Origin: Bacteroidaceae bacterium | GTDB taxonomy: Bacteria; Bacteroidota; Bacteroidia; Bacteroidales; Bacteroidaceae | Reading direction: 5' to 3' | Assembly (NCBI GenBank): GCA_017650105.1 | Contig: JAGCFO010000015.1 | Span: forward strand, 1 to 64,000 | DNA: 64,000 nucleotides | In this document: positions 18,120 through 49,698 of the stretch, piece after piece | Numbering within the stretch: position 1 is the first letter of the stretch | Layout of the letters: the number at the start of each line of letters is the position of its first letter | Program-made: the position numbers and the translations under genes | The notes under the pieces: generated by a model | Told to the model about the DNA's origin: nothing | The model's input: only the letters and a program-made list of their open reading frames with translations | The model's database searches: none

Positions 18120-18230
18120 TCGTAGGACTTTCTCTTTTTTTCGAGAAGGGAAAAATTTTTTTTCTTTCTTCATATCGCGAGATTCCTTCTTCATACGGCG
18201 CGCTTCCTTCTACATACGACGCTTTGCTTT
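18120..18230. repeat. 21-bp/AT-palindrome repeat, copy 2
   Basis: The element begins with the palindromic block GAGAAGGGAAAAATTTTTTT and continues with three consecutive 21-bp units: TTTCTTTCTTCATATCGCGAG, then a variant ATTCCTTCTTCATACGGCGC, then CTTCCTTCTACATACGACGC. The third unit carries the stop codon (18210-18212, minus) of the NuoG-like/propeller gene. Confidence 0.75.
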
Positions 18231-20411
18231 TCCTTCCTCCTGACGACCGAAGCAGAGTAGGGTGCCGCGTGCCGTAAGGATGTAGAATCGGGAGGATACG
18301 ACAGCAGGCGATGAGATAATCTGCTCGCCTGTCTCATATTCCCACAGACATTGCCCAGAGGCAGCATCGTGGATGGAGACAATACCCGTTCTCGTACATA
18401 CCAAAATCCTGTCAGAACAAACCAGCGGGGAGCTTTCTCCCACATCTCCGCGCAGCATTTGCTTCCATCTGATACGTCCGCTCGCACGCTCAATGCAAAG
18501 CAGATATCGCTCGTCGGCAAGCACATACACGGCATCGTCTGTCACAGCGGGCATTGAGAGCATGTTGCCTTCGTCGGATGTGGCAGAGAGTATCTTGCGG
18601 TGTGAACTGACGTGCCCGTCAGAGATGCCGACTTCGTAGACGTCTCCACTATAGTCGGCAACGTAGGCGCAGTCGCCCCATACGGCTGGAGACGCTGGGA
18701 TATAGGCATCCAGACGCAGCGAGTCGGTATACTCTCCCGTTTCGGTGTTAGTGATTCTGAGCCAGGCATCGCATCCTCCAAACAGGGCGAACTGATGCCA
18801 CAAAGCTGCAGCACCGTTTATGTAATAACCCGTGCTGATGCTGCTGACGAGCTGCCCATGAAGGGTGTCGAGGGTATACATACAGTTGTCGTAACTGCCC
18901 ACAAGGATGTGTCCTCGCCCGTCAAGCGTAGGTGATGCGATGATTTGTCCCTCGGTTTGGAAACGCCAGTTCTCGCTGCCGTCAGAAAGAGAAATGGAGC
19001 GTATGAGGCCGTCAATCTGCCCTACGTAGAGCACAGAGTCGGATATGATGAACGAAGCCTCCACGTCGGCTTGCAATTGAAGCTCGCTGACAATGTCTCC
19101 CTGCTCGTTGAAGCCTATCAGCTTCCCGTGTTTGTCGCACACGTAGACGGTTCCGTTGCTCACAATAGGCGATGTTACTGAGCGCACGTTGTGCCGATGC
19201 TCCCAAAGGAGCGTTGGGCCTTCTGGTAGTTTGCGTTTGGAAAAACCGTTCAAAGATGCGTTTCCTCTGAACGAAGTCCACTCCTGGAAGCTCTCTGCGT
19301 CGGAAGAATTTGGCATTCTCCGACAAGAGGAGAAAGGAATGAGAAGGACGAAAAGCAACATGACGATTTTGCGGAATAATGCGCCCGTAGGACAAATGTC
19401 GGCAATACGTTCGTCTACGTGCTTTTTGCTTTCCTCGGGAATGATAACTTGCATATCGAACCCGCGTCGCTCAAAAGTGAACCCATCGTCAGTGTTATAA
19501 ACGCAGAGACCACAGCGAATACATTTGGCAGGCTCGAAGACAAGATTGTTAGTGACACGAATCTGTTCTTTGAAAGGTAGGCTCGATTGCACTCCGTATT
19601 TTGGCAGCTTGATGCTTGCCTCAGTCGCGAGGCTGCGCAACTTACATTTGGCGCGCCCTTCGCAGGAACAGTGGAGACAGCGTGAGGGCTGATTGTAGGC
19701 TTCCCTCATGTGTTGCTTTTCGCTTTCGGAGAAACTGCCGATGCGGCTGAAGAACTGTTCCTTACGCTTTGTGGAGGAAACTGGAGCTACAGGACTCTCA
19801 CTTTTGTCGTCTTTCGATATTTGATTATCGTCATGTTGCGTTGACTGGACGTCTCTTGGTGTTTGATGTTCTACGGATGATGCTTCCTTTTCCTCTAGAC
19901 TTGTATCTGAAAAGTTCCTGATTTCATCTAAGATGCTTCTGATGTTTACAGCGTTGTCAACAGTTCGTCGACGACAAGCTTTCTCGCAGGGAGCCTTGCA
20001 GCCTTCGCAGGAAGTGCCTTCAAGGAGGGTTTTAGCTTGGGCTATTTCATCTCGGTCATAATGGAGGATAGCTTGAGCTACGTCAATCCCTTGCGGGCAG
20101 ACAATAGAACATGGACCTTCGCAGTCGGCTCGATGGTCACTCAGCAGTAGCTCAAGCGAGAGACGGCGTAAGGCATACACCTCGTCTGAATCAGTTTCGA
20201 TGCGCATTCCCTCATAAGGCAGCGTTGAGCATGAGGGAATCATCTGCCCCGAGGTGACATCTTTCACCATACACACCATGCATGAAGGTTCGTGTTGTTG
20301 TCCTTTGGCGTAGCACATTGAAGGGACAGAAATGCCTGCTTCGCGAAGTTCTTCAATTAAGGGACGGTTGCTACTAATGTCGAGGGATTGGCTATTGACG
20401 TATATTCTCAT
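18210..20411 (-). CDS. NuoG-N-like Fe-S protein fused to a PQQ-like beta-propeller
   Basis: I take the start at 20411 (MRIYVNSQSL), which begins the ferredoxin fold; an in-frame ATG at 20534 is upstream within the previous gene. The protein is 733 residues. A plant-type [2Fe-2S] site has Cys33, 44, 47 and 61. A HRADCEGPCSIVC motif (His93, Cys97, 101, 105) and CEGCKAPCEKAC (135, 138, 142, 146) follow, then CLHCSCEGRAKC and CIRCGLCV, with a late CPTG giving further [4Fe-4S]-type ligands. At residues about 348-363 there is one hydrophobic stretch, IVMLLFVLLIPFSSC, which looks like a lipoprotein signal with Cys363. The rest (about 370-733) is a PQQ-like propeller. Topology should be cytoplasmic Fe-S domain, one helix, periplasmic propeller. 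It overlaps the NuoEF gene by 20 bp. Confidence 0.82.
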   Translation of the reverse strand: MRIYVNSQSLDISSNRPLIEELREAGISVPSMCYAKGQQHEPSCMVCMVKDVTSGQMIPSCSTLPYEGMRIETDSDEVYALRRLSLELLLSDHRADCEGPCSIVCPQGIDVAQAILHYDRDEIAQAKTLLEGTSCEGCKAPCEKACRRRTVDNAVNIRSILDEIRNFSDTSLEEKEASSVEHQTPRDVQSTQHDDNQISKDDKSESPVAPVSSTKRKEQFFSRIGSFSESEKQHMREAYNQPSRCLHCSCEGRAKCKLRSLATEASIKLPKYGVQSSLPFKEQIRVTNNLVFEPAKCIRCGLCVYNTDDGFTFERRGFDMQVIIPEESKKHVDERIADICPTGALFRKIVMLLFVLLIPFSSCRRMPNSSDAESFQEWTSFRGNASLNGFSKRKLPEGPTLLWEHRHNVRSVTSPIVSNGTVYVCDKHGKLIGFNEQGDIVSELQLQADVEASFIISDSVLYVGQIDGLIRSISLSDGSENWRFQTEGQIIASPTLDGRGHILVGSYDNCMYTLDTLHGQLVSSISTGYYINGAAALWHQFALFGGCDAWLRITNTETGEYTDSLRLDAYIPASPAVWGDCAYVADYSGDVYEVGISDGHVSSHRKILSATSDEGNMLSMPAVTDDAVYVLADERYLLCIERASGRIRWKQMLRGDVGESSPLVCSDRILVCTRTGIVSIHDAASGQCLWEYETGEQIISSPAVVSSRFYILTARGTLLCFGRQEEGKAKRRM

Positions 20412-22887
20412 ATTTGATGGCATTGAAGTCGCATTCCTCGATACATAGCCCGCACAGGGTGCATAGCTCAGTATCGATGGTATGTTTTTTGTATGGTTCG
20501 AAGGGGATGGCGTCTGCCGGGCAGCAGCGCGCACATTTAGTGCAGCCTATGCAGTCGTCGGTGACGGTGAGGCGAACCATCTGCTTGCAAGAGCCCGTGC
20601 GGCAAATGCCGTTGACATGCTCCTCATATTCATGGCGGAAGTGCCGAAGGGTGGAGAGCACAGGATTGGGAGCCGTCTTCCCCAGTCCGCAGAGGGCTGC
20701 TTTCTGGATGCTCTCGGCTAGTTCTTCCAGCTGTGCGATATCTTGCATTGTGCCCTTGCCCGAACAGATGCGGTTGAGGATGTCGAGCATCCGCCTGACG
20801 CCTACACGGCAGAAAGTGCATTTTCCACAGCTCTCAGACGACACGAAGTTGACAAAATAGCGAGCCACATCCACCATGCAGTCTGTCTCGCTGAGAACGA
20901 CGAGGCCTCCTGAACCCATAATTGCTCCCATGTCCGTCAATGCATCGAAATCAACGGCAGCATCGCACAGATGAGCGGGGATGCAACCGCCTGAGGGGCC
21001 TCCTGTCTGCACAGCCTTGAGCTGCTCGCCCTTCTCCATACCTCCCCCAATATTTTCGACTATCTGGCGAAGGGTAGTACCCATGGGGACCTCGATGAGC
21101 CCTCCGTGACGCACTTTGCCGGCAAGGGCGAACACTTTGGTTCCCTTGCTGCCAGCGGTGCCGATGGCAGCGTAGTCGTCGTGAGTGATAATGTGTGGAA
21201 CTTGGCTCAACGTCTCCACGTTGTTGATGAGCGTGGGGTGACCGAAGAGGCCCTGTTGCGAAGGGTAAGGGGGGCGCAAGTGAGGGAATCCTCGCCGCCC
21301 TTCGATAGAGGCAATCAAAGCGGTCTCCTCGCCGCAAACGAAAGCGCCGGCACCCTCAAAGATGGTGACGTCAGCAGAGAAATCGGTACCAAGTATGTTG
21401 TCGCCCACATAGCCTCGTTGGCGGCAGAGGTCCAACGCTTTACGCACACGGATGACAGCTTGCGGATATTCGGCGCGAATGTAAAAGATGGCACGACGGG
21501 CGCCAACGGCATAGGCGGCAACCAGCAACCCTTCGATGACGCGGAGGGGGTAGCTTTCGAGCAGGATGCGGTCCATGAAAGCTCCCGGGTCACCCTCGTC
21601 GCCGTTGCAGATAACGTATTTGAGAGGGTCGGCTTCACAGGCAACCATTTTCCATTTCTGCCCGGTAGGGAAGCCACCGCCACCTCGTCCCCGAAGACCG
21701 CTCTTCAGTACTTTGTCGATAACGTAGGAGCGGCTTTTCGGAATGAAATTTTGTGAGGGGGACGATAGGTGCTCCCTTTCAGTATCCCCCATTTGATGCT
21801 GAAAATCATCTTTTTCCTTCGGAAATAGGGAAAACCTGAGAGCCTCAAAACCTCCACGGGCAACATATTCATCAATATCGAGGGGATTCATAAGGCCATA
21901 ACCCTCGGTGGAGATACGCAGCTGGCCTTCTAAGAAGTTGTTGATGCGCCGTGTGCGCTCTTCCTCAGGTTGGTATAGGATATTGTCCCATGTCTGGTCG
22001 GAGTGGAAAGAGTCTATTCTGCCAAGCAGAGCGTTGCGCCATCGGCGAAAGGGTGAGGCGGGGCGGAAGTGATGTAACAATACTTCCTTCACTTCATCGG
22101 GGCGTATGTGGGGATAGCGGGTTATGCTTCCGTCGGGCATCGCCACGTCGATGAGAGGAACTTGGTTGCATGCTCCCACACATGACACGGGTTTTATGGC
22201 AATGTTAATACCTAGTTCGCGGCATGCCTCCTCGAGGGCGATTTTTACCTCAGCCGTGCCACTTGCCTGGCAGCAGTTCTCCATACCTAAGCGCACTTCG
22301 CCTTGAATCTCTTTTGCAGGATGCTCTGATGACGTCGACTGATTGGCAGCAAGATAGTCTTGAAACTCCTGTAACACATCTCCTACACGACCCGCCTGTA
22401 CATGACCGAAAATCTTGTTATCAATCTGCACAACAGGTGCCAAGGCACAGCACCCCAGACAGGCAATCTTCTCAATAGAGTAGAGTCCGTCAGAGGTGGT
22501 GATGGTGTCATCGCTCATGTTCAGCTCACGCCGGAAGGAATCATAGACAGTATTTGCTCCCTTGACGTGACAGGCCGTTCCGCAGCAAACCCTAATGGTG
22601 TGTCGCCCATAGGGGAACATCCGGAACTGGGCATAGAAGGTTGCCACCGAGATGGCCTGGGCTTGTGTGATGTCGGTAGTCTCATATATCCTTTCAAGGG
22701 CATCGGATGGCAGATAGCTGAACTCAGCCTGCAACGCCTGGAGAAGAGGTATAACACACTCACGGCTCCGTCCGATGCGTTGAACAAGGGCATCGGTACG
22801 CAGACGGATTGACGAGCGGGCTTCGTCAGGGGATGATATTTTGCAATTCTCGCACGACATGTCTTTAGGAACTCTTTTTGACGACAT
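20392..22887 (-). CDS. NuoE-NuoF fusion, NADH-dependent flavin/Fe-S subunit
   Basis: The 831-residue protein joins three parts. Residues about 20-180 are a NuoE-like thioredoxin fold with [2Fe-2S] ligands Cys101, 106, 143 and 147. Residues 200-260 form a second [2Fe-2S] thioredoxin-like module with Cys205/206, 236 and 240, as in HydB/NfnB-type subunits. Residues 330-760 are NuoF: SGLRGRGGGGFPTGQKW (NADH/FMN), CNGDEGDPGAFMDR, AFVCGEETALIASIEG, and the [4Fe-4S] ligands Cys687, 690, 693 and 733. The end holds two ferredoxin clusters (Cys779, 782, 785, 789 and 809, 812, 815, 819). It should oxidise NADH and pass electrons through Fe-S centres. A later ATG at 22860 is equally possible as start and would remove the overlap with the preceding gene. 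Confidence 0.9.
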   Translation of the reverse strand: MSSKRVPKDMSCENCKISSPDEARSSIRLRTDALVQRIGRSRECVIPLLQALQAEFSYLPSDALERIYETTDITQAQAISVATFYAQFRMFPYGRHTIRVCCGTACHVKGANTVYDSFRRELNMSDDTITTSDGLYSIEKIACLGCCALAPVVQIDNKIFGHVQAGRVGDVLQEFQDYLAANQSTSSEHPAKEIQGEVRLGMENCCQASGTAEVKIALEEACRELGINIAIKPVSCVGACNQVPLIDVAMPDGSITRYPHIRPDEVKEVLLHHFRPASPFRRWRNALLGRIDSFHSDQTWDNILYQPEEERTRRINNFLEGQLRISTEGYGLMNPLDIDEYVARGGFEALRFSLFPKEKDDFQHQMGDTEREHLSSPSQNFIPKSRSYVIDKVLKSGLRGRGGGGFPTGQKWKMVACEADPLKYVICNGDEGDPGAFMDRILLESYPLRVIEGLLVAAYAVGARRAIFYIRAEYPQAVIRVRKALDLCRQRGYVGDNILGTDFSADVTIFEGAGAFVCGEETALIASIEGRRGFPHLRPPYPSQQGLFGHPTLINNVETLSQVPHIITHDDYAAIGTAGSKGTKVFALAGKVRHGGLIEVPMGTTLRQIVENIGGGMEKGEQLKAVQTGGPSGGCIPAHLCDAAVDFDALTDMGAIMGSGGLVVLSETDCMVDVARYFVNFVSSESCGKCTFCRVGVRRMLDILNRICSGKGTMQDIAQLEELAESIQKAALCGLGKTAPNPVLSTLRHFRHEYEEHVNGICRTGSCKQMVRLTVTDDCIGCTKCARCCPADAIPFEPYKKHTIDTELCTLCGLCIEECDFNAIKYENIRQ

Positions 22888-32469: not shown

Positions 32470-32595
32470 AAAAGGGATAATAATTTTTCGAGAAGGAATC
32501 TCGCGATATGAAGAAGGAAAAAACTTTTTTGGGCAAAGAAAAAAGATTTTTGAAGAAAGAAAAAAATTTTTTCCCTTCTTCATATTTCGAAAAAG
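32470..32595. repeat. 21-bp/AT-palindrome repeat, copy 3
   Basis: The element contains GAGAAGGAATCTCGCGATAT joined to GAAGAAGGAAAAAACTTTTT, then a second A/T block ending AAATTTTTTCCCTTCTTC and a CATATTTCG tail. It lies between the 3' end of the hemerythrin/LuxR gene and the GT5-like promoter. Confidence 0.75.
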
Positions 32596-32666: not shown

Positions 32667-33638
32667 CTACTCCAGTTCCTCAATCTTCACGAGTCCGTTC
32701 ACAATTGCGTAGATGGTAAGTCCTGCGGGCGAGTGAATCTCCAGTTTGCGGGCTATGTTGCGTCTGTGGGTAAGCACCGTGTTGAGGCTTATATAGAGTT
32801 TGTCGGCTATCTCCTTGTTAGTAAGGCCTTTCACTACGCCTATGACGATTTCTTTTTCCCGAGGGCTGAGCAGCGATGCGTCAGATATCCCTTCCTCGCA
32901 GCAGGGAATGCTTTCGTTTTCCTCCGAGGCACGTTCTTCAAGCAGCTTGACGGCGGGAAGAAACAGATTTTCCTCCACAAGTCCGTGTGCGTTCAGTTCT
33001 TCGTTGCAGATGAAAATGTCGGAAAGCACGTCGTTGAGTGCATAATTGCTGACGGAAGGCGCTGAGTAGTAGCGGATGATGATGTTTTTCAGCTCGTTGA
33101 GTTTTCCGTCGGCTGTTTCGTCGTGCTCTGTATCGAATGCGTCGATTGTGAAACTGCTAGGATGATGGGTAAGTAGGGCGTCAACGTGAGGGAAAACGGT
33201 TTTGTTCTCATAATCCAGATGGGCCCTGACCTCCTCGAAGAAGCTGTCGTAATATTTCAGTATGAGGAGAGGAAATTCGTTGGAAGATGAGTAGTTGACT
33301 GTTCCGATAAGCTTCCTGCGGATAGACGGAAGACTATATTCGAGGAAGTAGGTATGCGACTCGCGCAAGTATTTCAAAAGAGAAGGGAGCGAAATCGTTT
33401 CCGGCTCGGGAATAAAATCCTGCCTGCATCCGTTTCCGACGTAGTTTATGACAGCGAGGAAGGTGGAACAGTCGACGTTGTGTTCTCGGCAAACTTCCGA
33501 GACGCTTTTTTCTCCTACTCCCAATGACATTCCGAATCGGCTCACAATCTGAAGCAGGCTGTATTGTCGGTTGATAAGTTCTGCCATCAAGTCGGTAGGG
33601 CGGAAAAGATGCGTGGTGTGATAGTTTTTCGAAATCAT
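32667..33638 (-). CDS. Hemerythrin-like (RIC/YtfE-type) domain fused to LuxR HTH
   Basis: The 323-residue protein has three parts. Residues about 15-75 (INRQYSLLQIVSRFGMSLG, VSEVCREHNVDCSTFLAVIN) resemble the ScdA-N/DUF542 segment of RIC di-iron proteins. Residues about 85-235 form a helical bundle with possible metal ligands His95, His140-x3-Glu144, His172 and His218-x3-Glu222, as in hemerythrin-like RIC/YtfE. One of the usual histidines after the first helix seems missing. Residues about 255-320 are a LuxR-type HTH (LLSPREKEIVIGVVKGLTNK, SLNTVLTHRRNIARKLE). I infer a transcription factor that senses NO, oxygen or iron. It lies 23 bp after gph, probably in its operon. Confidence 0.75.
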   Translation of the reverse strand: MISKNYHTTHLFRPTDLMAELINRQYSLLQIVSRFGMSLGVGEKSVSEVCREHNVDCSTFLAVINYVGNGCRQDFIPEPETISLPSLLKYLRESHTYFLEYSLPSIRRKLIGTVNYSSSNEFPLLILKYYDSFFEEVRAHLDYENKTVFPHVDALLTHHPSSFTIDAFDTEHDETADGKLNELKNIIIRYYSAPSVSNYALNDVLSDIFICNEELNAHGLVEENLFLPAVKLLEERASEENESIPCCEEGISDASLLSPREKEIVIGVVKGLTNKEIADKLYISLNTVLTHRRNIARKLEIHSPAGLTIYAIVNGLVKIEELE

Positions 33639-33661: not shown

Positions 33662-34315
33662 TTAGGGGAGGGCAATCGTGAGTATCTGTTCGGGAGTGTG
33701 TACGAGATGCTTGGCTCCGCTTGCGCGCAGCTCCTCTGCCGAGCGGAAGCCCCACGTTACTCCGATGGACTCAACGTGGGCGTTCTCTGCCGTTTGCATA
33801 TCGATGCCTGAGTCGCCGATATACAAGACGTCTTGGACATCTACTCCTGCCTGCTCGATGATAAGGTATACGATAGAGGGGTCTGGCTTCATGGGGAATC
33901 CCTCTCTTTGCCCGAGTACGGTGCAGAAGGGTATGGTTGGGAAGAACCTGCGGATGAGTTTTTCGGTTGCCTGCTGGTATTTGTTGCTTGCTACAGCAAG
34001 CTTGAATCCTGCCTCGTGGAGCGAGGAGAGCACTTCTGTGATTCCTTCGTAGGGATGGCTGTTATCGGCATTGTGCTCATTATAATAGGGAACGAAGGCA
34101 GCGCGCATGCGTAGCACGTTTTCGTCGTTGCGGCTTTCCTCAGGAAGTGCGCTTCGGAAGAGATTGTTGATTCCTCGTCCTACGAAATGATAGTATTCAT
34201 CCACTTCGTGAGTGGGAAATCCGCATTGCTGTAAGGCAAAGTTTGTGGCGTGCGCCAAATCGGCAACGGTGTCGAGCAGAGTGCCGTCCAAGTCAAAGAT
34301 TGCAAGTTTCTTCAT
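33662..34315 (-). CDS. gph: Phosphoglycolate phosphatase-like HAD hydrolase
   Basis: The 217-residue protein is a HAD subfamily IA phosphatase. Motif I is FDLDGTLLDT, with the nucleophile Asp8 and Asp10. Motif II is VASNKYQ, and motif IV is GDSGIDMQTAENA. Length and sequence fit Gph-type enzymes that dephosphorylate 2-phosphoglycolate; HAD substrate specificity cannot be proven from sequence. It lies 6 bp after the DUF4861 gene and 23 bp before the regulator. Confidence 0.85.
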   Translation of the reverse strand: MKKLAIFDLDGTLLDTVADLAHATNFALQQCGFPTHEVDEYYHFVGRGINNLFRSALPEESRNDENVLRMRAAFVPYYNEHNADNSHPYEGITEVLSSLHEAGFKLAVASNKYQQATEKLIRRFFPTIPFCTVLGQREGFPMKPDPSIVYLIIEQAGVDVQDVLYIGDSGIDMQTAENAHVESIGVTWGFRSAEELRASGAKHLVHTPEQILTIALP

Positions 34316-35333: not shown

Positions 35334-36941
35334 TTACTTTAGAGGAATCTCGCGTTCGGTTCCAATCTTGTCGTAAACAGTGCCGTTGACTTTCACGTTT
35401 GCTACGCCGCTCATTCTGCAGGCAGGACCTTTAGAGAGAGTTTCGATATGCAAGTCGTTCAGCACAATATCCTGTGCTTCGCAGAAGACAGCACCTTCTT
35501 TGGCGTCGGTAACCGTGAATCTGTCAAGATGAATGTTCTCGATGCGTTTTTCGGGCAATCCGTTGAAGAAGACGGCGCGCCCGGCTCCCTTGCAAACGAC
35601 GTCTTTCACAAAGATGTTGCGGAAGATGGGCGTCGTTTCGTCCACAGCCGGCAACTGAACGGGTGTGGCGTTGCCTTCATCGTCATAAGAAACTTCTTCT
35701 CCCCGTGCTTTTCCCGAATAGAAAAGATTGAAAATCATTGCCTCCGAAGGGATGTTAATCATGTTTATGTTGCTGATGTAGATGTTCTCCACAAGGCCCC
35801 CTCTTCCCCTGCAGCTCTTGAAGCGCAAACCGACATCGGTGCCCATGAATGTGCAGTTGTTCACCCAAATGTTCTGCACGCCTCCGCTCATCTCGCTTCC
35901 CACGACAAAGCCTCCGTGCCCGTGATAAACAACATTGTCGGTGATGATAATCCCGCGAGCCGGCTCAGCATGTCTTCGCCCGTCTTCGTCTTTGCCCGAC
36001 TTGATGCAGATAGCGTCGTCGCCTGCGTCGAAGTGACATCCTGCGATAATCGCGTTGGTGCACGACTCAAGGTCAAGGGCATCGCCGTTTTGTGAGTACC
36101 AGGGGTTGTTGACGGTTACGTTGTGGATGGTGATGTGGTTGCATCCTCTGGGGTGGAGGCACCAAGCGGGCGAGTTCTTGAACGTGCAGCCCTCGATGAG
36201 CACCTTGCGCGAGTGCACAATGTTGAGCAGCACGGGACGGAGCCAGTCGCGGATGCTGTCCCACTGCTCGGGTGTCTCGATTCCCGAAGGATTGTTGAAG
36301 TTTTTGCAAGCCTGCATGCCCTTGATGCTGCCCTCGCTTGGATACCAAGTGTCGCCCAGCGTCACTCCTCCTTTCTTGAGCAGGTTTTTCCATTGGCTGT
36401 CGGTGACTTTGCTCTTCTTCACGGCGCGCCAAGTGTCTCCGTTTCCGTCAAATACTCCGTACCCCGTGATAGCGATGTTCTCACAGTCCCATGCAGAGAT
36501 GGGCGAAGTGCATCGGCGCGTGTCGAGTCCTTCGAAATTCGTGTCGATGATGGGATACAAGCTGTGGTCTCCGCTGAAGTAAACGAGCGCTCCGTGTTCG
36601 CTATAGAGGTTGACGTTATTCTTCAACTGGATGGGGCCTGCCAGCCACAATCCGGCTGGTATCACAACGGTTCCTCCTCCGTGCGAGCTTACCGCATCGA
36701 TGGCCTTGTTGATGGCTTCGTGGCAGAGCGTCTTCCCGTCGGGGACGGCTCCAAACTGGGTAATATCGACACTATAGCTGGGGAACGAGGGTAACTCTAC
36801 TACTTCCATCTCGAAAGGAAGTTGCTTGTAGATGCTCTTGTCGATAGGGTAGTTTTCTTGAGCTGACGTACTGTGGCAGCCGCACAACACGGCAGATGCT
36901 ATCGCTATGCATGCGAGGAAGGGGAATCGGGTGGTTCTCAT
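35334..36941 (-). CDS. GH28 polygalacturonase lipoprotein
   Basis: From the ATG at 36941 (MRTTRFPFLACIAIASAVLC) the protein is 535 residues with a lipoprotein-like signal (VLCGC). A beta-helix entry (ITQFGAVPDGKTLCHEAINK) is typical of GH28. The catalytic motifs are present in variant form: NGDALDLESC, DAGDDAICIKSG, HGGFVVGSEMSGG and GLRFKSC. It should hydrolyse (rhamno)galacturonan chains, probably at the cell surface or in the periplasm. It heads a probable operon with DUF4861, gph and the hemerythrin-like regulator. Confidence 0.9.
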   Translation of the reverse strand: MRTTRFPFLACIAIASAVLCGCHSTSAQENYPIDKSIYKQLPFEMEVVELPSFPSYSVDITQFGAVPDGKTLCHEAINKAIDAVSSHGGGTVVIPAGLWLAGPIQLKNNVNLYSEHGALVYFSGDHSLYPIIDTNFEGLDTRRCTSPISAWDCENIAITGYGVFDGNGDTWRAVKKSKVTDSQWKNLLKKGGVTLGDTWYPSEGSIKGMQACKNFNNPSGIETPEQWDSIRDWLRPVLLNIVHSRKVLIEGCTFKNSPAWCLHPRGCNHITIHNVTVNNPWYSQNGDALDLESCTNAIIAGCHFDAGDDAICIKSGKDEDGRRHAEPARGIIITDNVVYHGHGGFVVGSEMSGGVQNIWVNNCTFMGTDVGLRFKSCRGRGGLVENIYISNINMINIPSEAMIFNLFYSGKARGEEVSYDDEGNATPVQLPAVDETTPIFRNIFVKDVVCKGAGRAVFFNGLPEKRIENIHLDRFTVTDAKEGAVFCEAQDIVLNDLHIETLSKGPACRMSGVANVKVNGTVYDKIGTEREIPLK

Positions 36942-36979
36942 TGGATAGAAAATGATAGTTGCGTTATTGTTACAAGTTA

Positions 36980-37010
36980 CAAAGATAGGCAAAAGTTTGG
37001 AAACGCGAAA
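36980..37010 (-). promoter_or_regulatory. Promoter of the GH28 operon
   Basis: TATCTTTG on the minus strand (36987-36980) with TTTC (37010-37007), a 3-of-4 match to the -33 box at 19-bp spacing. It lies 38 bp before the chosen start codon, supporting the start at 36941 over the frame opening at 36992. Confidence 0.6.
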
Positions 37011-37073: not shown

Positions 37074-37190
37074 AAAGTGGGAGAAGAAGGAATCTTGAAT
37101 TATGGAGAAGGAATCTCGCGATATGAAGAAAGAATCCGGCGATATGAAGAAGGGAAAAATTTTTTTTCCTTCTTCATAATTCTCGGTGGA
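37074..37190. repeat. 21-bp/AT-palindrome repeat, copy 4
   Basis: Units in reverse orientation: GGAATCTCGCGATATGAAGA, then AGAATCCGGCGATATGAAGA, followed by the palindrome GAAGGGAAAAATTTTTTTTC and CCTTCTTCATAATTC. A preceding partial unit reads GAAGGAATCTTGAATTATGG. It lies between the TonB receptor 3' end and the GH28 promoter. Confidence 0.78.
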
Positions 37191-37236: not shown

Positions 37237-39237
37237 TCAGCGCTGTTTGTTGAAGCAGAAAGCGCAACCTATCATCACGTTTGCTCCATCGGTGACAGGA
37301 GTATTCATGTAGTGGTATTCGGGCTTGTAGTTCAGAAGGTTATCAACTGCGAGAGTGAGTTTGAACTTGTCATCAAAACTTTCGCAAGCCGATAGTTTCC
37401 AAAGCATATAGGCTGGGTATTCTACTTGCCTCATGCCTTTCGAGATATCATAATAGTCGATGTATTCTGCGCTTTTCACGCTCGAGAGCATACGCCCGTT
37501 AAGAGTGACGCGAAGTTTGCGCTTTTCGCTTGTCTGCTTCTCCCAGTCGAAGCGCATCATGAGCGCATGTTTGCGTGCCGGGATGTATGGGCTGCTGATG
37601 CTGTTGCCTTCCTTGTCGGAAGGCAGCTGTTCGTGCGTATAAGCATAGGAGAGAGAAGTGCCGAAGCCATTCTCCCAATGCCCTTGAAGCATTATTTCAC
37701 TTCCGTAGACGGAATAAGAATCGAGGTTGATGTACTCGAGGAAGAGCTGGTTCCCTTCATTGGGGAGCATGTGGGGAATACTCGTCGAAATCTTGTTTTG
37801 TACCTTGTTGTAGTAGGCTGATGCCGTGATGCCGTAGTTTCCCTTCTTGTAGTCAGCCGAAACGTTGAAGTTGTGGCTGAGTTCTGCCTTCAATTGCGGA
37901 TTTCCCTTGATAATCCAGATGCCTTCCATATCGAAGAGATAGTATTTCTCCTTGAGCGCAGGCGCCCGAAATCCTCTGCCGTAACCCATACGAAGGTTTA
38001 GTTCTGGCTGGGGCTGATACCGAAGTGAGATTTTTGGGGTAATTTGCGAGTTTTTTCCTTCGGAGAAATAGTCGAAGCGTAAGGCGCTCAGCATCTCCCA
38101 TTTGAATGAGAGAATCCAGTCGTATTGTGCAAAGGAACTGCAGGAATACTGGTTTTTCGAGGGACCTTCAAGATGGGTGTTCAACAGATAGTCGTAGGCG
38201 TATTCGGCTCCTGCCGTGAAGATGTCTCCATCATCCCGAAAATGATTGTACAACGTGCGGAAAGAGTTCTTCACGTTGCTGTAATCGCGAATGTCGTATC
38301 CCGTCAGTCGCTGGAAATCAGACTTGTCGTACTGATCGAAAATATAGGAGGCAACTAAATTGTCTTTTTCCGTAATGTCCCACGTAGCTCGAAGACTTGC
38401 TGCGAAGTCACGATACCTTTCGGGTGTGTCAATCGTTCTGTATACTTCCTGAAAGTAGTATCCCGCGTGCCCCGTGATTTTGAATTTTTCGTTAGGCGTA
38501 AAGGATATCTTGTCGTTCAGGTTCCACTTCTGATTCCCGAAAACAGTCGTATAGACTTGCGCAGCAGGGCTTTCACCGTTATGAACGCTATATGTCTCCC
38601 TTGCCGTCCTTTCCACATTTAATGTGTTGCTCACACTCCCGTTGCTTGTCCCTACAGCCCCTCGGAACCTGCTCTCGCCGTGTTTGGCAACTCTTCCATC
38701 CACATCTATTCTCAACGGCTCCGTCTGCTCTTTGGTAATGATGTTGATGATTCCTCCCGCTGCATTGCTTCCATAAAGAGCGCTACCCGATTCCTTGACT
38801 ATCTCAACCCTTTGAACGTTCGACATCGTGAGGCGGGCAAAGTCTACGTCATCCATCGTTTCCCCGCTTAGCCGCTCTCCATCAACAAGGAATAGGATAG
38901 ATTGCCCTCCGAATCCGTTAAGATTGAGATGCTTAAGCTGATTCATTGCATACGAGAATTCCGCTCCTGGAATCTCTTGGCTGAGTAGTTCTTCCACATC
39001 CGTTGCGTCTGTTTTTTCGATGTCGGAAGCTGAAATCACTCGTGTCAAGACGGGAGCGTCTGCCTTCCATTTATAAGTTTGCGTGCCTGTGACTACAACT
39101 TCGTCCAACGTTTGCTCAGCGCTGTTTGTCGCTGCTTTTCGGCTTACTCTTCGGATGGAATCGGCCGGTTCCTCTTCTGCATGTAAGGAGAGGGAGAGAG
39201 CTGTGAGGAGGATAAGCAAGGCGAAGCTGTGTTTCAT
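37237..39237 (-). CDS. TonB-dependent outer-membrane receptor, heme/cobalamin-receptor type
   Basis: The 666-residue receptor has a signal peptide (MKHSFALLILLTALSLSLHA), a TonB-box-like LDEVVVTGTQ near 44-53, and a plug domain with DVEELLSQEIPGAEFSY, LVDGERLSGE and VEIVKESGSALYGSNAAGGI. The beta-barrel ends NVMIGCAFCFNKQR, with a C-terminal strand. The length and single-operon pairing with an HmuY-like lipoprotein indicate an HmuR-type heme receptor, but the substrate is inferred from the neighbour. No CarboxypepD-like extension is present, so it is not a SusC-type protein. It starts 3 bp after the HmuY-like gene. Confidence 0.88.
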   Translation of the reverse strand: MKHSFALLILLTALSLSLHAEEEPADSIRRVSRKAATNSAEQTLDEVVVTGTQTYKWKADAPVLTRVISASDIEKTDATDVEELLSQEIPGAEFSYAMNQLKHLNLNGFGGQSILFLVDGERLSGETMDDVDFARLTMSNVQRVEIVKESGSALYGSNAAGGIINIITKEQTEPLRIDVDGRVAKHGESRFRGAVGTSNGSVSNTLNVERTARETYSVHNGESPAAQVYTTVFGNQKWNLNDKISFTPNEKFKITGHAGYYFQEVYRTIDTPERYRDFAASLRATWDITEKDNLVASYIFDQYDKSDFQRLTGYDIRDYSNVKNSFRTLYNHFRDDGDIFTAGAEYAYDYLLNTHLEGPSKNQYSCSSFAQYDWILSFKWEMLSALRFDYFSEGKNSQITPKISLRYQPQPELNLRMGYGRGFRAPALKEKYYLFDMEGIWIIKGNPQLKAELSHNFNVSADYKKGNYGITASAYYNKVQNKISTSIPHMLPNEGNQLFLEYINLDSYSVYGSEIMLQGHWENGFGTSLSYAYTHEQLPSDKEGNSISSPYIPARKHALMMRFDWEKQTSEKRKLRVTLNGRMLSSVKSAEYIDYYDISKGMRQVEYPAYMLWKLSACESFDDKFKLTLAVDNLLNYKPEYHYMNTPVTDGANVMIGCAFCFNKQR

Positions 39238-39240
39238 GCA

Positions 39241-40068
39241 TCAATAGGGATAGATGTAGTTGATTGTCAGCACACATTTAGTGCCCTTTTCACTCTGATA
39301 GTTCTCAAGCTGAAGGGCAGCGTAAGTCCCTTCGGGCAGACGAACGATGAAAACGTGGTTGTTGAGGGAGAAGGCTGGGGGAATGGGGGGAATTTCGACT
39401 GTCAGCCAATTCGACAACACTCGGTTTGTCCTTATCCCTTGATTGCCGATAATCCCGTTCAGCATCTGCTCTCGCAATACCCACACGTCGGTTTCGTTCC
39501 ATTCGTCCTCCACAAACGGCGCGTCGGCAAACGAAAGGCTGCTCTCGGGGAGATCTTCCATCCGAGTGAATTCTGTTTCGAAAACCGACGCGCCGTTTGT
39601 CCGAACGTTATTCCTGTGAAAGGCTACACTCCACGCGGAGGGCTCTTCCTGAGTCTCTGTGGGGATAAACTGCTGAAAAACGTTGTGGGAAATACCTGCT
39701 CCGTAGACATCATACCAATAGACGTAGATGCCGTCAGCGTTTTGACTATCAGGATTATCGCTTTTCTGCGTTTCCTCAGTAGGAATGGAAATTCTCACAA
39801 CAGCATCAGAAGGATTGTAGCGTTTGTCTTTCTTCAAACTATCGTCCAGAGCCTTGAAGTCGAGATAATACCAATCGTTCCAGCTTGATGCGTCAATCAG
39901 GAGCCTGCCTGCCTTCTCCTCGGTTTCGGGTGGAGGATTATCGTAGATGTTTTGAAAAATTCCTTCACACGAAACAAGCATTGCGGCAACCGTAAAGGCA
40001 AGCAAGCTTTTTGCCCCAAGCTTGCAAATGGCTGGCAGAAAGGCGAACTTCCTTGTGAGAATTGTCAT
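39241..40068 (-). CDS. HmuY-family lipoprotein
   Basis: The 275-residue product has a basic N-region and lipobox (LLAFTVAAMLVSCEG, Cys about 34). The mature part has the HmuY family pattern: LLIDASSWNDWYYLDFKAL near the start, YVYWYDVYGAG, WSVAFHRNNVRTNGAS and a long beta-rich second half. P. gingivalis HmuY binds heme on the cell surface and hands it to HmuR. The heme-ligating His residues cannot be assigned here. It sits between a calycin-like lipoprotein (10 bp) and the TonB receptor (3 bp). Confidence 0.83.
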   Translation of the reverse strand: MTILTRKFAFLPAICKLGAKSLLAFTVAAMLVSCEGIFQNIYDNPPPETEEKAGRLLIDASSWNDWYYLDFKALDDSLKKDKRYNPSDAVVRISIPTEETQKSDNPDSQNADGIYVYWYDVYGAGISHNVFQQFIPTETQEEPSAWSVAFHRNNVRTNGASVFETEFTRMEDLPESSLSFADAPFVEDEWNETDVWVLREQMLNGIIGNQGIRTNRVLSNWLTVEIPPIPPAFSLNNHVFIVRLPEGTYAALQLENYQSEKGTKCVLTINYIYPY

Positions 40069-40078
40069 TCTCGGCTGA

Positions 40079-40630
40079 TTATTTCGCGCCTTTGCCCGTT
40101 TGGGCGTCTTCAGGAGCCTTTCCTTCGCGGAAAGTGATGGTTGTTCCGCCCATCACGTCGGGAAGAGTAATCGTAATCACTTCGAGAGTGCCTCCCAAGA
40201 CGGCATCATAAGTTCCCGTGTTACCACGATAAGTCATTGTGAGCTTGCCTGTTCCGGATAATTCCTTATCGATTGTCACATCGGTAAACGTTACGTCTCC
40301 CCACTGAGGGTCGGAGAATGTTACCACATAGCTGTTGTCGATTGTGTGTATGCTCAGCAAAGCATCGTTGCCGTAATAGGAGTCAGTAAAATAGGCAGAG
40401 CTGACGTAGATGTAGCCCGAGTAGTCAACGTTGATGGGCTTGAGCTTATTTTCATCGGGCTCGGAGCAAGAGGTCATGAAAGTCAATGCTGCGAAGAGCA
40501 TGAAAAAAGTCCCCAGAAGGCTGCCTGAGGCTAGGCTATTTTTCCCTTCTCGAAAAATATTTTTTCTTTCTTCATCTCGCGAGATTTGTTCTCCAAAAAT
40601 TTTTTTTCCTTCTTGATAATTTTTCTTCAT
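40079..40630 (-). CDS. Calycin-like lipoprotein with repeat-derived N-terminus
   Basis: From the ATG at 40630 the protein is 183 residues. Residues 1-37 (starting MKKNYQEGKKIFGEQISR) are encoded by repeat DNA and are Lys/Glu/Arg-rich. A lipoprotein signal then follows (FFMLFAALTFMTSC, Cys near 50). The mature part has short beta strands with LKPINVDYSGYIYVSSAYF and a second half of GTYDAVLGGTLEVITITLP, like the calycin-type lipoproteins that accompany HmuY and TonB receptors. An unusually long n-region precedes the signal, so the effective start may be the Met at the hydrophobic core. The -7 box at 40675 supports initiation at 40630. Confidence 0.72.
   Translation of the reverse strand: MKKNYQEGKKIFGEQISRDEERKNIFREGKNSLASGSLLGTFFMLFAALTFMTSCSEPDENKLKPINVDYSGYIYVSSAYFTDSYYGNDALLSIHTIDNSYVVTFSDPQWGDVTFTDVTIDKELSGTGKLTMTYRGNTGTYDAVLGGTLEVITITLPDVMGGTTITFREGKAPEDAQTGKGAK
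40540..40630. repeat. 21-bp/AT-palindrome repeat, copy 5, in a lipoprotein N-terminus
   Basis: TTTTCCCTTCTCGAAAAATA is followed by a TTTCTTCATCTCGCGAGATT unit, then a second block, TTGTTCTCCAAAAATTTTTT, and CCTTCTTGATAATTTTTC. The minus strand is translated as the first about 30 residues of the calycin-like lipoprotein. Confidence 0.72.
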
Positions 40631-40667
40631 TTGTCGATAGTGATTAAAGTGTTTTTGAAACTGGCTG

Positions 40668-40699
40668 CAAAGGTATGCCGCTTGCCATTTGCAGTCAAT
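40668..40699 (-). promoter_or_regulatory. Promoter of the HmuY/TonB operon
   Basis: TACCTTTG on the minus strand (40675-40668) and ATTG (40699-40696), a 3-of-4 -33 match at 20-bp spacing. The start codon lies 38 bp downstream. It is divergent from the LuxR-type regulator. Confidence 0.62.
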
Positions 40700-40747
40700 C
40701 CTCATTTTTGATGATTTTTCAAAAAATCGCAGTAGGAAACGAGGAAT

Positions 40748-41356
40748 TTGAAAGATTTTGCCTACATTTGCATCGTGTACACACATATCGAGTTAGCTAT
40801 TGCTGATACCAACGTCTTGACAACGCTCGGCCTTCAGTATATTCTTGCCGACATCATGCCGTCGGCAGACATTTCGATATTCGTCTCTTTCGAAGAGCTG
40901 CAAGCTGCCGACAAGGGGCAGTTTATTCATTACTTCGTCTCCTCGCAAATTTATTTCGGGCACACGGCTTACTTCCGCTCACGCCCTCACCGTACTATCG
41001 TGCTGGTAAACGGCGATATGACCATTTCGGGAGTTCCGACACTCAATGTGAATCAGGGAGAGCAGGCACTTGTCAGAAGTGTGCTCGCTATGCATCAACG
41101 TCCCGGGCATCCTGCAGCTCAAATGGTTCCTATGCGCAAGTCAACCGAACAGCTCCTCTCTCCAAGAGAGACGGAAATAGCCATCTTGCTCTCGCAAGGA
41201 TTAATAAATAAGGAGATAGCAAGCAGGCTCAACATCAGCGTGACAACAGTCATCACCCATCGGAAAAACATTATGGAAAAACTTCATGCCCGTTCTATTG
41301 CCAACATTATCGTCTATGTGGTGATGAATGGGCTTGCCGACGTTTCTGAACTGTAA
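40748..41356 (+). CDS. LuxR-type regulator with receiver-like N-domain
   Basis: The 202-residue protein has a degenerate receiver-like region (HIELAIADTNVLTTLGLQYIL) in which the usual phospho-acceptor Asp is not evident. The C-terminal LuxR HTH runs from LLSPRETEIAILLSQGLINK through VTTVITHRKNIMEKLHAR. The HTH is clearly a paralogue of that in the hemerythrin-like regulator at 32667-33638. The start is uncertain: a TACATTTG box at 40763-40770 lies inside this frame, and the in-frame GTG at 40775 would then be a near-leaderless start. The gene is divergent from the HmuY/TonB operon and heads the TIGR02757-ogt-methylase run. Confidence 0.78.
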   Translation: MKDFAYICIVYTHIELAIADTNVLTTLGLQYILADIMPSADISIFVSFEELQAADKGQFIHYFVSSQIYFGHTAYFRSRPHRTIVLVNGDMTISGVPTLNVNQGEQALVRSVLAMHQRPGHPAAQMVPMRKSTEQLLSPRETEIAILLSQGLINKEIASRLNISVTTVITHRKNIMEKLHARSIANIIVYVVMNGLADVSEL

Positions 41357-47259: not shown

Positions 47260-47302
47260 AAAATACTTACTTTTCGGTATTTTCTTGAGCGTATTCCTTT
47301 TA

Positions 47303-47310
47303 TACTTTTG
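47303..47310 (+). promoter_or_regulatory. -7 element of feoAB
   Basis: TACTTTTG matches TAnnTTTG; TTTT at 47280-47283 is a 3-of-4 -33 box at 19 bp. The start codon is 27 bp downstream. I see no obvious Fur box. Confidence 0.5.
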
Positions 47311-47337: not shown

Positions 47338-49698
47338 ATGACACTTAGAGAATTAAAAGTAGGGCAAACGGCTGTAGTAGAAGCTGTTGGCGGCGAAGGA
47401 AATCTGCGTCAGCATTTCCTAGATATGGGTATTATTCCAGGAGTTCCTGTCAAGATGATGAAGTATGCCCCAATGGGCGATCCAGTAGAGATACTCATTC
47501 ATGGGTATGCCCTAACGCTGCGTTTAGCCGATGCTGAGAAGATTGACGTTATCCCTTTGGACGCGAAGGAAACCGAAGAGGCGTACGGAAACGAAACAAT
47601 CGTTTCTGAAGAAAGAGGAGGCAAGTATAGCGAATTGCTTCACCCGGGATTGGGAGAAACAGGAAAGTATCACTCAAAAGATCATGAGAATCCTCTTCCC
47701 AAGGATACGAAGCTTACATTTGCTTTGGCGGGACAGCAGAACTGCGGAAAGACGACTCTTTTCAATCAACTAACGGGCGCAAACCAACATATCGGCAACT
47801 TTCCCGGTGTCACCGTTGACAGAAAAGATGGTGTCATCAGGGGATATTCCAATACGTCTGTCACAGATTTGCCGGGCATCTATTCTCTCTCTCCTTATAC
47901 GGCAGAAGAGCGTGTGTCGCGCAAGTTTATCCTTGAGGAAAAGCCGAAAGGAATCATCAACATCGTGGATGCCACGAATATCGAGCGCAATCTCTATCTT
48001 ACCATCCAGCTAATGGAACTGGGAGTCCCTATGGTGCTGGCGCTGAATATGATGGATGAAGTGCGCAACAACGGAGGCACTATCCGCATCAACGAAATGG
48101 AGGAGATACTCGGCATTCCCGTAGTGCCTATTTCGGCAGCGAAAAATGAGGGCGTAGATGAACTTGTGGAGCATGCTGTGCATGTGGCTTCATTCCAGGA
48201 ATGCCCTGTGCGCAAGGATTTTTGCGACAAGAACGAGCACGGAGGCGCTGTGCATCGTTGTCTGCACAGCATTATGCACTTAATAGAGGATCATTGTCAG
48301 ACGTCGGGGCTTCCGCTACGTTTTGCTGCCAGCAAGATAGTGGAGGGAGACGAAATGGTGTTGGAAACGCTGAAGTTGGATGAGGAGGAGAAACACACTA
48401 TCGAGCATATCATCAAGGAGATGGAGCAGGAGCGAGGGCTCGACCGAGAAGCTGCTATTGCTGATATGCGCTATTCCTTCATCAGAAAACTCTGCGCGCA
48501 GACGGTTGTAAAGCCTCGCGTGAGCAAAGAGTATCTACGCAGCCGACGTATCGACAAGGTGCTCACGGGGCGATGGACGGCGCTACCTGTATTTGTTGTC
48601 ATCATGTGTCTTGTCATTTGGCTCAGCATCGACGTGCTTGGCGCGCCGTTGCAGGATTGGCTCGATACGGGCATAACGGCTCTCGGCAGTCTTTGCGAGA
48701 AAGGGATGCGTGCTGCAGATGTAAGCCCGGCAGTCGTGTCGCTTGTCGTGGATGCCATTTTCGGAGGCGTGGGAAGCGTGTTAAGTTTTGTGCCCATCAT
48801 CATCATTCTGTTCTTCTTCCTCAGCATAATTGAGGATAGCGGATATATGGCTCGCGTGGCGTTTGTGTCTGACAAACTGTTGCGCAAACTGGGACTCTCG
48901 GGACGTTCTATTGTGCCCCTCCTGATAGGTTTTGGATGCTCTGTGCCGGCAGTTATGGCTACACGCACGTTGCCTTCTGCACGCGACAGATTGAAAACCA
49001 TTCTGCTGACGCCATTTATGAGTTGCTCGGCAAAGATTCCCATCTACGGCTTCTTCACAGCTGCCTTCTTCCCGGGAAAAGGGGGAGTGGTGCTCATCGC
49101 CCTTTATCTGCTCAGCATCTTTGTCGGCATCGTTGTGGCGCTTCTCACAAAACGTCTCCCGAAGCAGGGAGAAGCAGCGCCTTTTGTTATGGAGTTGCCC
49201 AACTACCGTATGCCGAGCGCGCGGAACGTGTTGATGCTCTTGTGGGACAAGACAAAGGATTTCATCCAGCGTGCCTTCACGATAATCTTTGTTGCCACGC
49301 TTGTCATTTGGTTCTTGCAGTCTTTCAACTTCCGTTTCCAACTGGTGGAGAACGGCGAAGGCAGTATGCTTGCCTGGTTGGCAGGCATTGTGGCGCCTAT
49401 TTTCCGCCCTATGGGGCTGGGAGACTGGCGTGTAGTAACGGCTCTCATCAGCGGATTCCTTGCGAAGGAGAGTGTGGTTTCCACTATGGAAGTGCTTGAT
49501 GTGACTGCCGTTCTGTCGGTTGTTTCTGCCGTTCCTATGTTGCTGTTTTGTCTGCTTTACACGCCTTGTGTGGCAGCTGTCGCAAGCGTCAGGCGTGAGC
49601 TGGGGCCTCGTTGGGCGCTGTTTGTTGTAGTATTTCAATGTCTGATTGCCTGGCTTATCGCTTGGGTAGGATTCCTCATTGCCAATCTGATTGTATGA
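47338..49698 (+). CDS. feoB: Ferrous iron transporter, FeoA-FeoB fusion
   Basis: The 786-residue inner-membrane protein takes up Fe(II). Residues 1-75 are a FeoA/SH3-like domain (LKVGQTAVVEAVGGEGNLRQ, EILIHGYALTLRLADAEKI). The GTPase G domain shows G1 GQQNCGKT at 132-139, G2 FPGVT at 155-159, G3 DLPGIYSL and G4 NMMD. The C-terminal part has about eight helices with the Gate motifs (IEDSGYMARVAF, GFGCSVPAVMATRT). FeoA fusion is usual in Bacteroidota. The 50-residue Cys-rich gene overlaps its stop codon, as is common. Confidence 0.96.
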   Translation: MTLRELKVGQTAVVEAVGGEGNLRQHFLDMGIIPGVPVKMMKYAPMGDPVEILIHGYALTLRLADAEKIDVIPLDAKETEEAYGNETIVSEERGGKYSELLHPGLGETGKYHSKDHENPLPKDTKLTFALAGQQNCGKTTLFNQLTGANQHIGNFPGVTVDRKDGVIRGYSNTSVTDLPGIYSLSPYTAEERVSRKFILEEKPKGIINIVDATNIERNLYLTIQLMELGVPMVLALNMMDEVRNNGGTIRINEMEEILGIPVVPISAAKNEGVDELVEHAVHVASFQECPVRKDFCDKNEHGGAVHRCLHSIMHLIEDHCQTSGLPLRFAASKIVEGDEMVLETLKLDEEEKHTIEHIIKEMEQERGLDREAAIADMRYSFIRKLCAQTVVKPRVSKEYLRSRRIDKVLTGRWTALPVFVVIMCLVIWLSIDVLGAPLQDWLDTGITALGSLCEKGMRAADVSPAVVSLVVDAIFGGVGSVLSFVPIIIILFFFLSIIEDSGYMARVAFVSDKLLRKLGLSGRSIVPLLIGFGCSVPAVMATRTLPSARDRLKTILLTPFMSCSAKIPIYGFFTAAFFPGKGGVVLIALYLLSIFVGIVVALLTKRLPKQGEAAPFVMELPNYRMPSARNVLMLLWDKTKDFIQRAFTIIFVATLVIWFLQSFNFRFQLVENGEGSMLAWLAGIVAPIFRPMGLGDWRVVTALISGFLAKESVVSTMEVLDVTAVLSVVSAVPMLLFCLLYTPCVAAVASVRRELGPRWALFVVVFQCLIAWLIAWVGFLIANLIV

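Follow-up and report, generated by a model that had tools for sequence, protein, structure and literature searches.

The closest described counterparts of the locus studied here are hemerythrin/CdhR operons of the Bacteroidales. In Porphyromonas gingivalis the operon is PG1236-37, the second gene of which encodes CdhR, and in Bacteroides thetaiotaomicron it is BT_0519-0520; a fused form, PIN17_RS10465, is reported from Prevotella intermedia. According to excerpts of the same report, iron depletion raises PG1236-37 6.9-7.3-fold and BT_0519-0520 16-20-fold, and hmuYR is regulated by CdhR, whose iron binding the paper described in 2023 as yet to be shown (PMC10434189). Excerpts of two further papers present CdhR as an activator of hmu, with both cdhR and hmu down in microaerophilic conditions (PMC10101095), and again as the hmuYR regulator (PMC9666725). 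The low-iron lists of B. thetaiotaomicron and P. gingivalis, as excerpted, also contain BT2473-82 (CcsA, a porin, a thiol oxidoreductase and a peptidase M75), up 62.7-323.7-fold, as well as TetR/ABC loci and the PepSY-TM locus BT3628-29; the increase of feoB is small in P. gingivalis, at 2.2-fold, while the 5.9-fold increase in B. thetaiotaomicron has a p value of 0.25 (PMC10434189).

A second point of reference is the RIC family, represented by YtfE of Escherichia coli and ScdA of Staphylococcus aureus. The di-iron ligands of YtfE are given as His84, His129, His160, His204, Glu133 and Glu208, and its Cys30/Cys31 pair is assigned a role in electron transfer and is required for turnover in some conditions; RIC di-iron sites are described, in the excerpted text, as reactive with NO species (PMC9052748).

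We analysed a 64,000-nucleotide stretch of DNA, referred to here as the window, comprising positions 1-64,000 of contig JAGCFO010000015.1 from a Bacteroidaceae bacterium (assembly GCA_017650105.1). It encodes a protein, P0001, of the type already described, a hemerythrin domain fused to a LuxR-type DNA-binding domain. The operator and regulon that we propose for it are new predictions as far as our searches go: no such operator appears in the titles or abstract openings of the open-licence papers listed, and a CdhR site may nonetheless have been published.

Architecture of the fused regulator and its di-iron-type site

Pfam identifies two domains in P0001, Hemerythrin (PF01814, residues 89-229, 32 bits against a gathering cut-off of 25.3) and GerE/LuxR HTH (PF00196, residues 256-311, 61.1 bits against a gathering cut-off of 23.5), and detects no receiver domain. 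No other protein in the 3.38-Mb assembly, which is 91.5% complete, matches PF01814. An AlphaFold2 model computed from 42 fused sequences has a mean pLDDT of 90.6, with a loose, low-confidence linker before the HTH (residues 245-254), and the HTH matches DegU, VraR and LiaR at Z about 11. Positions of these and the other features discussed are collected in the table.

Table. Features of the window discussed in the text, with the basis for each assignment
Feature	Position	Strand	Basis
Fused hemerythrin-LuxR regulator gene (P0001)	32667..33638	-	ORF and translation, 323 aa, ATG start
Hemerythrin bundle, residues 89-229	32952..33374	-	Pfam, conservation
LuxR/NarL-type HTH, residues 256-311	32706..32873	-	Pfam, model confidence, structural matches
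ScdA_N-like region, about residues 12-66	33441..33605	-	Profile alignment to ScdA
HAD phosphatase gene	33662..34315	-	Pfam HAD_2; shares the regulator's strand and lies 24 bp upstream
hmu operon, predicted target	37237..40786	-	Pfam HmuY and TonB receptor
TonB receptor of hmu operon	37237-39237	-	Pfam
HmuY	39241-40068	-	Pfam
First ORF of hmu operon	40079-40786	-	No Pfam match
-7 box TACCTTTG of hmu promoter	40668..40675	-	21 bp from predicted operator
Weaker predicted operator before hmu operon	40697..40716	-	3 mismatches
Orphan LuxR-HTH protein, 202 aa, divergent from hmu	40748..41356	+	Pfam GerE, 62.6 bits
Predicted operator before feoAB, AATACTTACTTTTCGGTATT	47262..47281	+	2 mismatches to consensus
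-7 box TACTTTTG of feoAB promoter	47303..47310	+	Sequence; 21 bp after predicted operator
Fused feoAB gene for ferrous iron transport, predicted target	47338..49698	+	Pfam FeoA, FeoB
GH28 enzyme	50241-51545		Pfam

Six candidate ligands in P0001 (His95, His140, Glu144, His172, His218 and Glu222) correspond to all six of those in YtfE. We followed them through an alignment of 109 rows, 72 fused (P0001 included) and 37 split, among which at least five pairs of rows are identical and probably represent the same locus fetched twice. His140, Glu144, His218 and Glu222 are present in every row. His95 is found in 108 and lacking only from a truncated row; His172 is found in 103, and each of the six rows without it carries a His one residue earlier. 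In a profile alignment of 29 hemerythrin parts, His95 falls one position away from YtfE His84; the spacing is the same, 45 residues from His95 to His140 and 45 from YtfE His84 to His129. By these alignments a di-iron-type site is conserved far beyond chance, and its occupancy by iron is predicted. A first-pass annotation of this DNA had proposed a RIC/YtfE-like bundle joined to a LuxR domain, with His140-x3-Glu144 and His218-x3-Glu222 among the ligands of a di-iron site, and had suggested that poor ligand conservation would speak against it. Pfam confirms the two-domain arrangement, the motifs lie where they were placed with His95 and His172 as further candidates, and the conservation check, now run over the 109 rows, finds the ligands of this DNA-binding regulator well kept.

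The Cys pair of YtfE and ScdA has no counterpart: none of the 109 rows contains a Cys in columns 36-46 (three rows are gapped there), and Gly40, present in the 106 ungapped rows, together with Val41 occupies the ScdA Cys-Cys position in P0001. Retention of the metal ligands with loss of the Cys pair would be the pattern expected of a sensor. The RIC model TIGR03652 aligns to residues 41-229 at 43.1 bits, below its cut-off of 204.7, and Pfam ScdA_N gives no match in P0001 (E up to 1) or in the 29 hemerythrin parts (E up to 0.01). Run against the PDB, the profile of those 29 parts picks up both ScdA and YtfE (E 3.5e-8 to 8.5e-7) and aligns along the length of ScdA, N-terminal part included. Compared with the ScdA and YtfE structures, the P0001 model superposes over 144-153 residues at Z 14.2-14.9 and an rmsd of 3.2-3.5; because unrelated helical bundles can reach Z about 13, the RIC link rests on the sequence match. 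A Foldseek search with the model returned nothing below 1e-3, the best match being YtfE at 4.8e-3. The RIC likeness of P0001 is thus real but distant.

Fused and split relatives and their neighbourhoods

A scan of named genomes found 247 relatives, of which the best 80 loci were kept; among 151 genomes from the same family, 142 contain a match at 1e-10. Besides the window's own two copies, we assembled 109 loci (all locus counts include about five duplicates), of which 71 are fused, 37 are split and one, cut off, was dropped (L071). In the split form a LuxR-HTH gene encoding about 200 aa comes closely after a standalone hemerythrin gene. One pair of this family is found in Porphyromonas sp. 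HMSC065F10 (L067). The N-terminal half of the split partner gives no Pfam receiver match at E 0.01 in the five partners tested. It models as a receiver (pLDDT 89.9), with a best structural match at Z 16.0 and rmsd 2.0 over 115 residues. Across the 37 partners the phospho-Asp column, picked by eye, contains Asn in 21, Asp in nine, Ser in six and a gap in one, and the Lys column, likewise picked by eye, contains no Lys. The receiver active site, as read from these columns, appears degenerate.

In a tree of 105 rows (four partial rows left out), which merge to 100 different rows, the fused/split label requires nine changes, at least three of them forced by well-supported branches, subject to a long-branch warning. 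This topology suggests that the gene pair fused repeatedly, with loss of the degenerate receiver. In nine split loci (L040, L042, L043, L047, L048, L049, L050, L052 and L057) a gene of one cluster precedes the hemerythrin gene on the same strand; Pfam, applied to the L052 copy, identifies it as a flavin reductase.

We surveyed the neighbourhood of the regulator in the 109 loci with flanks of up to 6 kb, many of 1.5 kb. The fused regulator is adjoined by feoAB in 12 other loci, 11 divergent and one on the same strand. In 12 loci a GGYGE outer-membrane-type protein, two examples of which gave no Pfam match, is encoded divergently from the fused regulator. In a 28-genome test, imelysin (PF09375) was present in 12 of the 19 genomes that carry the regulator and in 0 of the 9 that lack it; in seven of those 12 it lies within about 5 kb of the regulator. 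The HAD phosphatase gene probably shares a transcript with the regulator in the window's genus; the two occur together with a glycosyltransferase-5-like gene in 10 related loci, three of which are duplicates.

Pfam bears out the presence in the window of the heme-uptake genes, feoAB and a GH28 enzyme, all of which the first-pass annotation had noted around the regulator. A link to pectinase genes is not supported: among the 109 loci, GH28 lies beside the regulator in the nearest relative alone, which has no hmuYR there, so the pectinase neighbourhood looks incidental and we rejected the link. Physical closeness of hmuYR was likewise set aside as evidence, since it is not kept in relatives. Another ORF, at 35334-36992, is a GH28-like candidate nearer to the regulator than the Pfam-supported enzyme.

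Elsewhere, the window encodes a protein combining receiver and PglZ domains (56578-58128, minus strand) and a beta-propeller protein in which Pfam matches a 2Fe-2S domain (Fer2_4, 32 bits; 18213-20534, minus strand). The word TTTTCCCTTCTTCATAT occurs in the window at 32506-32585 and 37142-37179, and at other places, several times as an inverted pair. It is a dispersed repeat in its own genome, with 243 matches at up to one mismatch (118 forward, 125 reverse) and none for the reversed control.

A predicted operator and its distance to the -7 box

The intergenic regions of 23 divergent loci contain a palindrome, AATACYCAnnnnTGRGTATT, which was first spotted by eye; these 23 discovery loci are therefore not independent. 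At up to two mismatches it occurs 33 times in 108 regulator loci (1.03 Mb), and the reversed pattern not once. In the stretch from 350 bp before the regulator ORF to 60 bp into it, the palindrome is found at up to three mismatches in 37 of the 71 fused loci and 8 of the 37 split ones (a few loci being duplicates), against 0 of 108 for the reversed control; without the discovery loci the counts are 18 of 48 and 8 of 37. The regulator gene has no such site upstream in the window's genus.

A TAnnTTTG box, with a background of 0.00048 per position, lies exactly 21 bp from 38 of 75 sites at up to one mismatch, 62 of 108 at up to two and 80 of 199 at up to three, compared with 0 of 15 reversed-control sites. 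Of the 84 gaps of 20-22 bp between operator and box, 81 measure 21. Many of the sites in this test come from loci fetched for the palindrome, and the -7 box had no part in their choice. Oriented by the box, the consensus of 81 sites reads AAATACCCATttTTGGGTATTG, 20 bp, TAACTTTGCA. The half-sites, in our view, resemble NarL heptamers, the palindrome overlaps the -33 element (TTG), and its centre would presumably lie near -45 if the end of the box is taken as -7 by convention. A protein bound 21 bp before the box and overlapping the -33 element would most likely be an activator; as a counterpoint, the overlap with the -33 element would be compatible with repression as well.

In the genome to which the window belongs, 38 sites match the operator pattern, as defined from other genomes, at up to three mismatches, against 13 for the control. 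Four of the 38 show the exact spacing, before the porin-imelysin operon, feoAB, a DUF4491 gene and hmu. Operator plus box gives six hits, the two further ones being on contigs 8 and 24, and none with the control. The best site, with one mismatch, is that of the porin-imelysin operon on contig 29 (L127 6096-9219), where a GGYGE outer-membrane-type protein, an imelysin and a small protein lie in a row; neither the first nor the last has a Pfam match, and the row is likely an iron uptake operon. The site before the DUF4491 gene (contig 30, L128 5939-6302) has two mismatches with the exact 21-bp spacing, making its product a candidate iron-regulated protein. Two sites within feoA, at 47414 and 47490, have no spaced -7 box and were treated as chance. 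The hmu promoter falls inside the first ORF of its operon, the true start of which is probably within that ORF. The predicted hmu operator ends about 32 bp before the orphan LuxR ORF, whose HTH region is 43% identical to that of P0001. This orphan is possibly a local heme-uptake regulator and, on sequence grounds, a putative rival binder of the hmu site.

Across 151 genomes, 74 sites at up to one mismatch were counted against 19 for the control (hand-summed), and 60 of the 74 were fetched for gene context. Twenty-six of the 60, a share that has no control, precede iron-stimulon-type genes or the regulator: porin-imelysin (seven), TetR (six, one by Pfam and five by eye alone), feoAB (five), TonB receptor (three), CcsA-type (two), and hmuYR, PepSY-TM and the regulator itself (one each). 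The other 34 are inside genes, unclassified or before other genes. As kinds of genes, not as orthologues, those associated with the operator match the low-iron operons in the excerpted lists mentioned above. Together with the neighbourhood, the predicted operators support the earlier suggestion that iron genes are likely targets.

Of 137 genomes with a hemerythrin match, 103 contain operator plus box at up to two mismatches, compared with 1 of 14 without PF01814, and the control pattern is found in 5 of 151; the Fisher p of 7.6e-7 for this co-occurrence overstates certainty, as does any Fisher value here, because the genomes are related. By form, as read from the match ranges, 72 of 86 fused and 31 of 50 split genomes have the combination; one further genome with hemerythrin (G059) has none. 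In genus g25, operator sites occur in 2 of 2 genomes that have the protein and in 1 of the 6 that lack it; the corresponding counts for g22 are 5 of 5 and 0 of 3. One genome (G104) has no hemerythrin protein yet has two operator sites, and its lack of the protein is possibly an assembly gap. A strong FeoB locus was available in 17 of 18 genomes with the regulator and 8 of 9 without (G001 and G004 dropped); the operator lies upstream of feoAB in 11 of 17 and 1 of 8, respectively (p 0.03), or 11 of 17 and 1 of 7 (p 0.07) when a locus with just 63 bp upstream is removed. The reversed control, at three mismatches, gives 1 of 17 and 0 of 8, and shuffles give 5 of 500.

Proposed iron sensing, alternatives and known systems

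Based on these observations, we think it fairly probable that P0001 is a fused, CdhR-type, iron-responsive activator of iron acquisition with a di-iron sensor. Its RIC-derived hemerythrin domain would hold the di-iron site and serve as the sensor, and its NarL-type HTH would bind the palindrome; P0001 bound over the -33 element, 21 bp before the TAnnTTTG box, would most likely activate transcription. When iron is low, the site would lose iron or change state, and iron uptake genes would be switched on, here feoAB and the porin-imelysin operon, probably hmuYR and possibly the DUF4491 gene. Operator binding, activation, iron in the site and iron loading as the signal are what we infer in this scheme. 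Several observations weigh against it: the three-mismatch hmu site with an orphan LuxR gene alongside, the missing operator before the regulator gene in the window's genus, the two sites in G104, the weak contrast at feoAB, the 34 of 60 fetched sites placed elsewhere or unclassified, the one-residue offset of His95 in the profile alignment and the modest published response of feoB. The site would gauge iron, with O2 or redox possibly the signal. Nitric oxide, oxygen and iron had all been offered as signals in the first-pass annotation; the neighbourhood, the operator sites and published expression favour iron (perhaps O2 or redox). Nothing pointing to NO or Fe-S repair was found in searches that did not query NO genes by name.

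Full retention of the ligand set and the clear relationship to RIC might suggest an Fe-S repair or nitrite-reducing enzyme of RIC type that also carries an HTH. We rejected this identity as highly improbable, given a score far under the RIC cut-off and a complete lack of Cys in columns 36-46 of the 109 rows. Ownership of the operator is a more substantial question. LuxR HTHs can bind similar sites, the orphan adjoining the hmu site has an HTH 43% identical to that of P0001, and the regulator gene itself lacks an operator in the window's genus, so the palindrome could belong to another LuxR-family protein and P0001 could have different targets. We nevertheless doubt this, as many lineages have the operator in front of the fused gene itself, and genomes that lack the hemerythrin protein almost never contain it.

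Two other alternatives keep the regulon and change its logic, and we consider each of them unlikely, if somewhat less so than a different owner of the operator. Hemerythrins react with O2, and the signal at the di-iron site could be O2, redox state or NO. Excerpted reports that RIC di-iron sites react with NO species (PMC9052748) and that cdhR and hmu fall in microaerophilic conditions (PMC10101095) are consistent with such a signal; however, the neighbours, the classified operator genes and the induction described in the excerpts all concern iron supply (PMC10434189). Alternatively, P0001 could be an iron-bound, Fur-like repressor that covers the -33 element when iron is present and releases it when iron is absent. 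Such a repressor would fit both the overlap with the -33 region and the rise of the predicted gene kinds in low iron, as excerpted (PMC10434189), but the near-constant spacing is more typical of an activator, and CdhR is reported to activate hmu (PMC10101095).

An iron-responsive activator is the reading that we also extend, more tentatively and at somewhat less than even confidence for its parts taken jointly, to the Bacteroidales at large. In many of them, a non-Fur, hemerythrin-based regulator may run much of the iron-starvation response by means of a RIC-derived di-iron gauge (perhaps of O2). A NarL-type activator positioned at 21 bp would switch feoAB, porin-imelysin, hmuYR, TetR/ABC, PepSY-TM, CcsA and TonB-receptor operons, and the gene pair would have been fused more than once, the degenerate receiver being lost. 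If this hypothesis is correct, common bacteria of the gut and mouth would use a hemerythrin to gauge iron at the level of transcription. The defined operator with its fixed spacing, the target list and the conserved ligands make the proposal directly testable by experiment.

Several known systems share parts of this design. FBXL5 is a human hemerythrin sensor of iron and O2, and the use of a hemerythrin domain as an iron gauge would be an idea in common; its output, a ubiquitin ligase, is unrelated. With NarL/LuxR-type response regulators such as LiaR, VraR, DegU and NarL, P0001 shares the HTH, and its predicted site is likewise an inverted repeat near the -35 region. In contrast to these regulators, P0001 has no receiver, and its split relatives have a receiver-like domain without most of the usual phosphorylation residues. 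YtfE and ScdA have the hemerythrin fold and six di-iron ligands in common with P0001, the N-terminal region of which is ScdA-like by profile, whereas P0001 lacks the Cys pair, scores far under the RIC cut-off and has an HTH. The nearest match is the hemerythrin/CdhR operon and its fused form PIN17_RS10465, which, as far as the excerpted descriptions allow comparison, combine hemerythrin with a LuxR-type regulator in Bacteroidales and are linked to hmu and low iron, as is predicted for P0001; relative to these, P0001 adds a fused member from another lineage, with an operator and targets now proposed.
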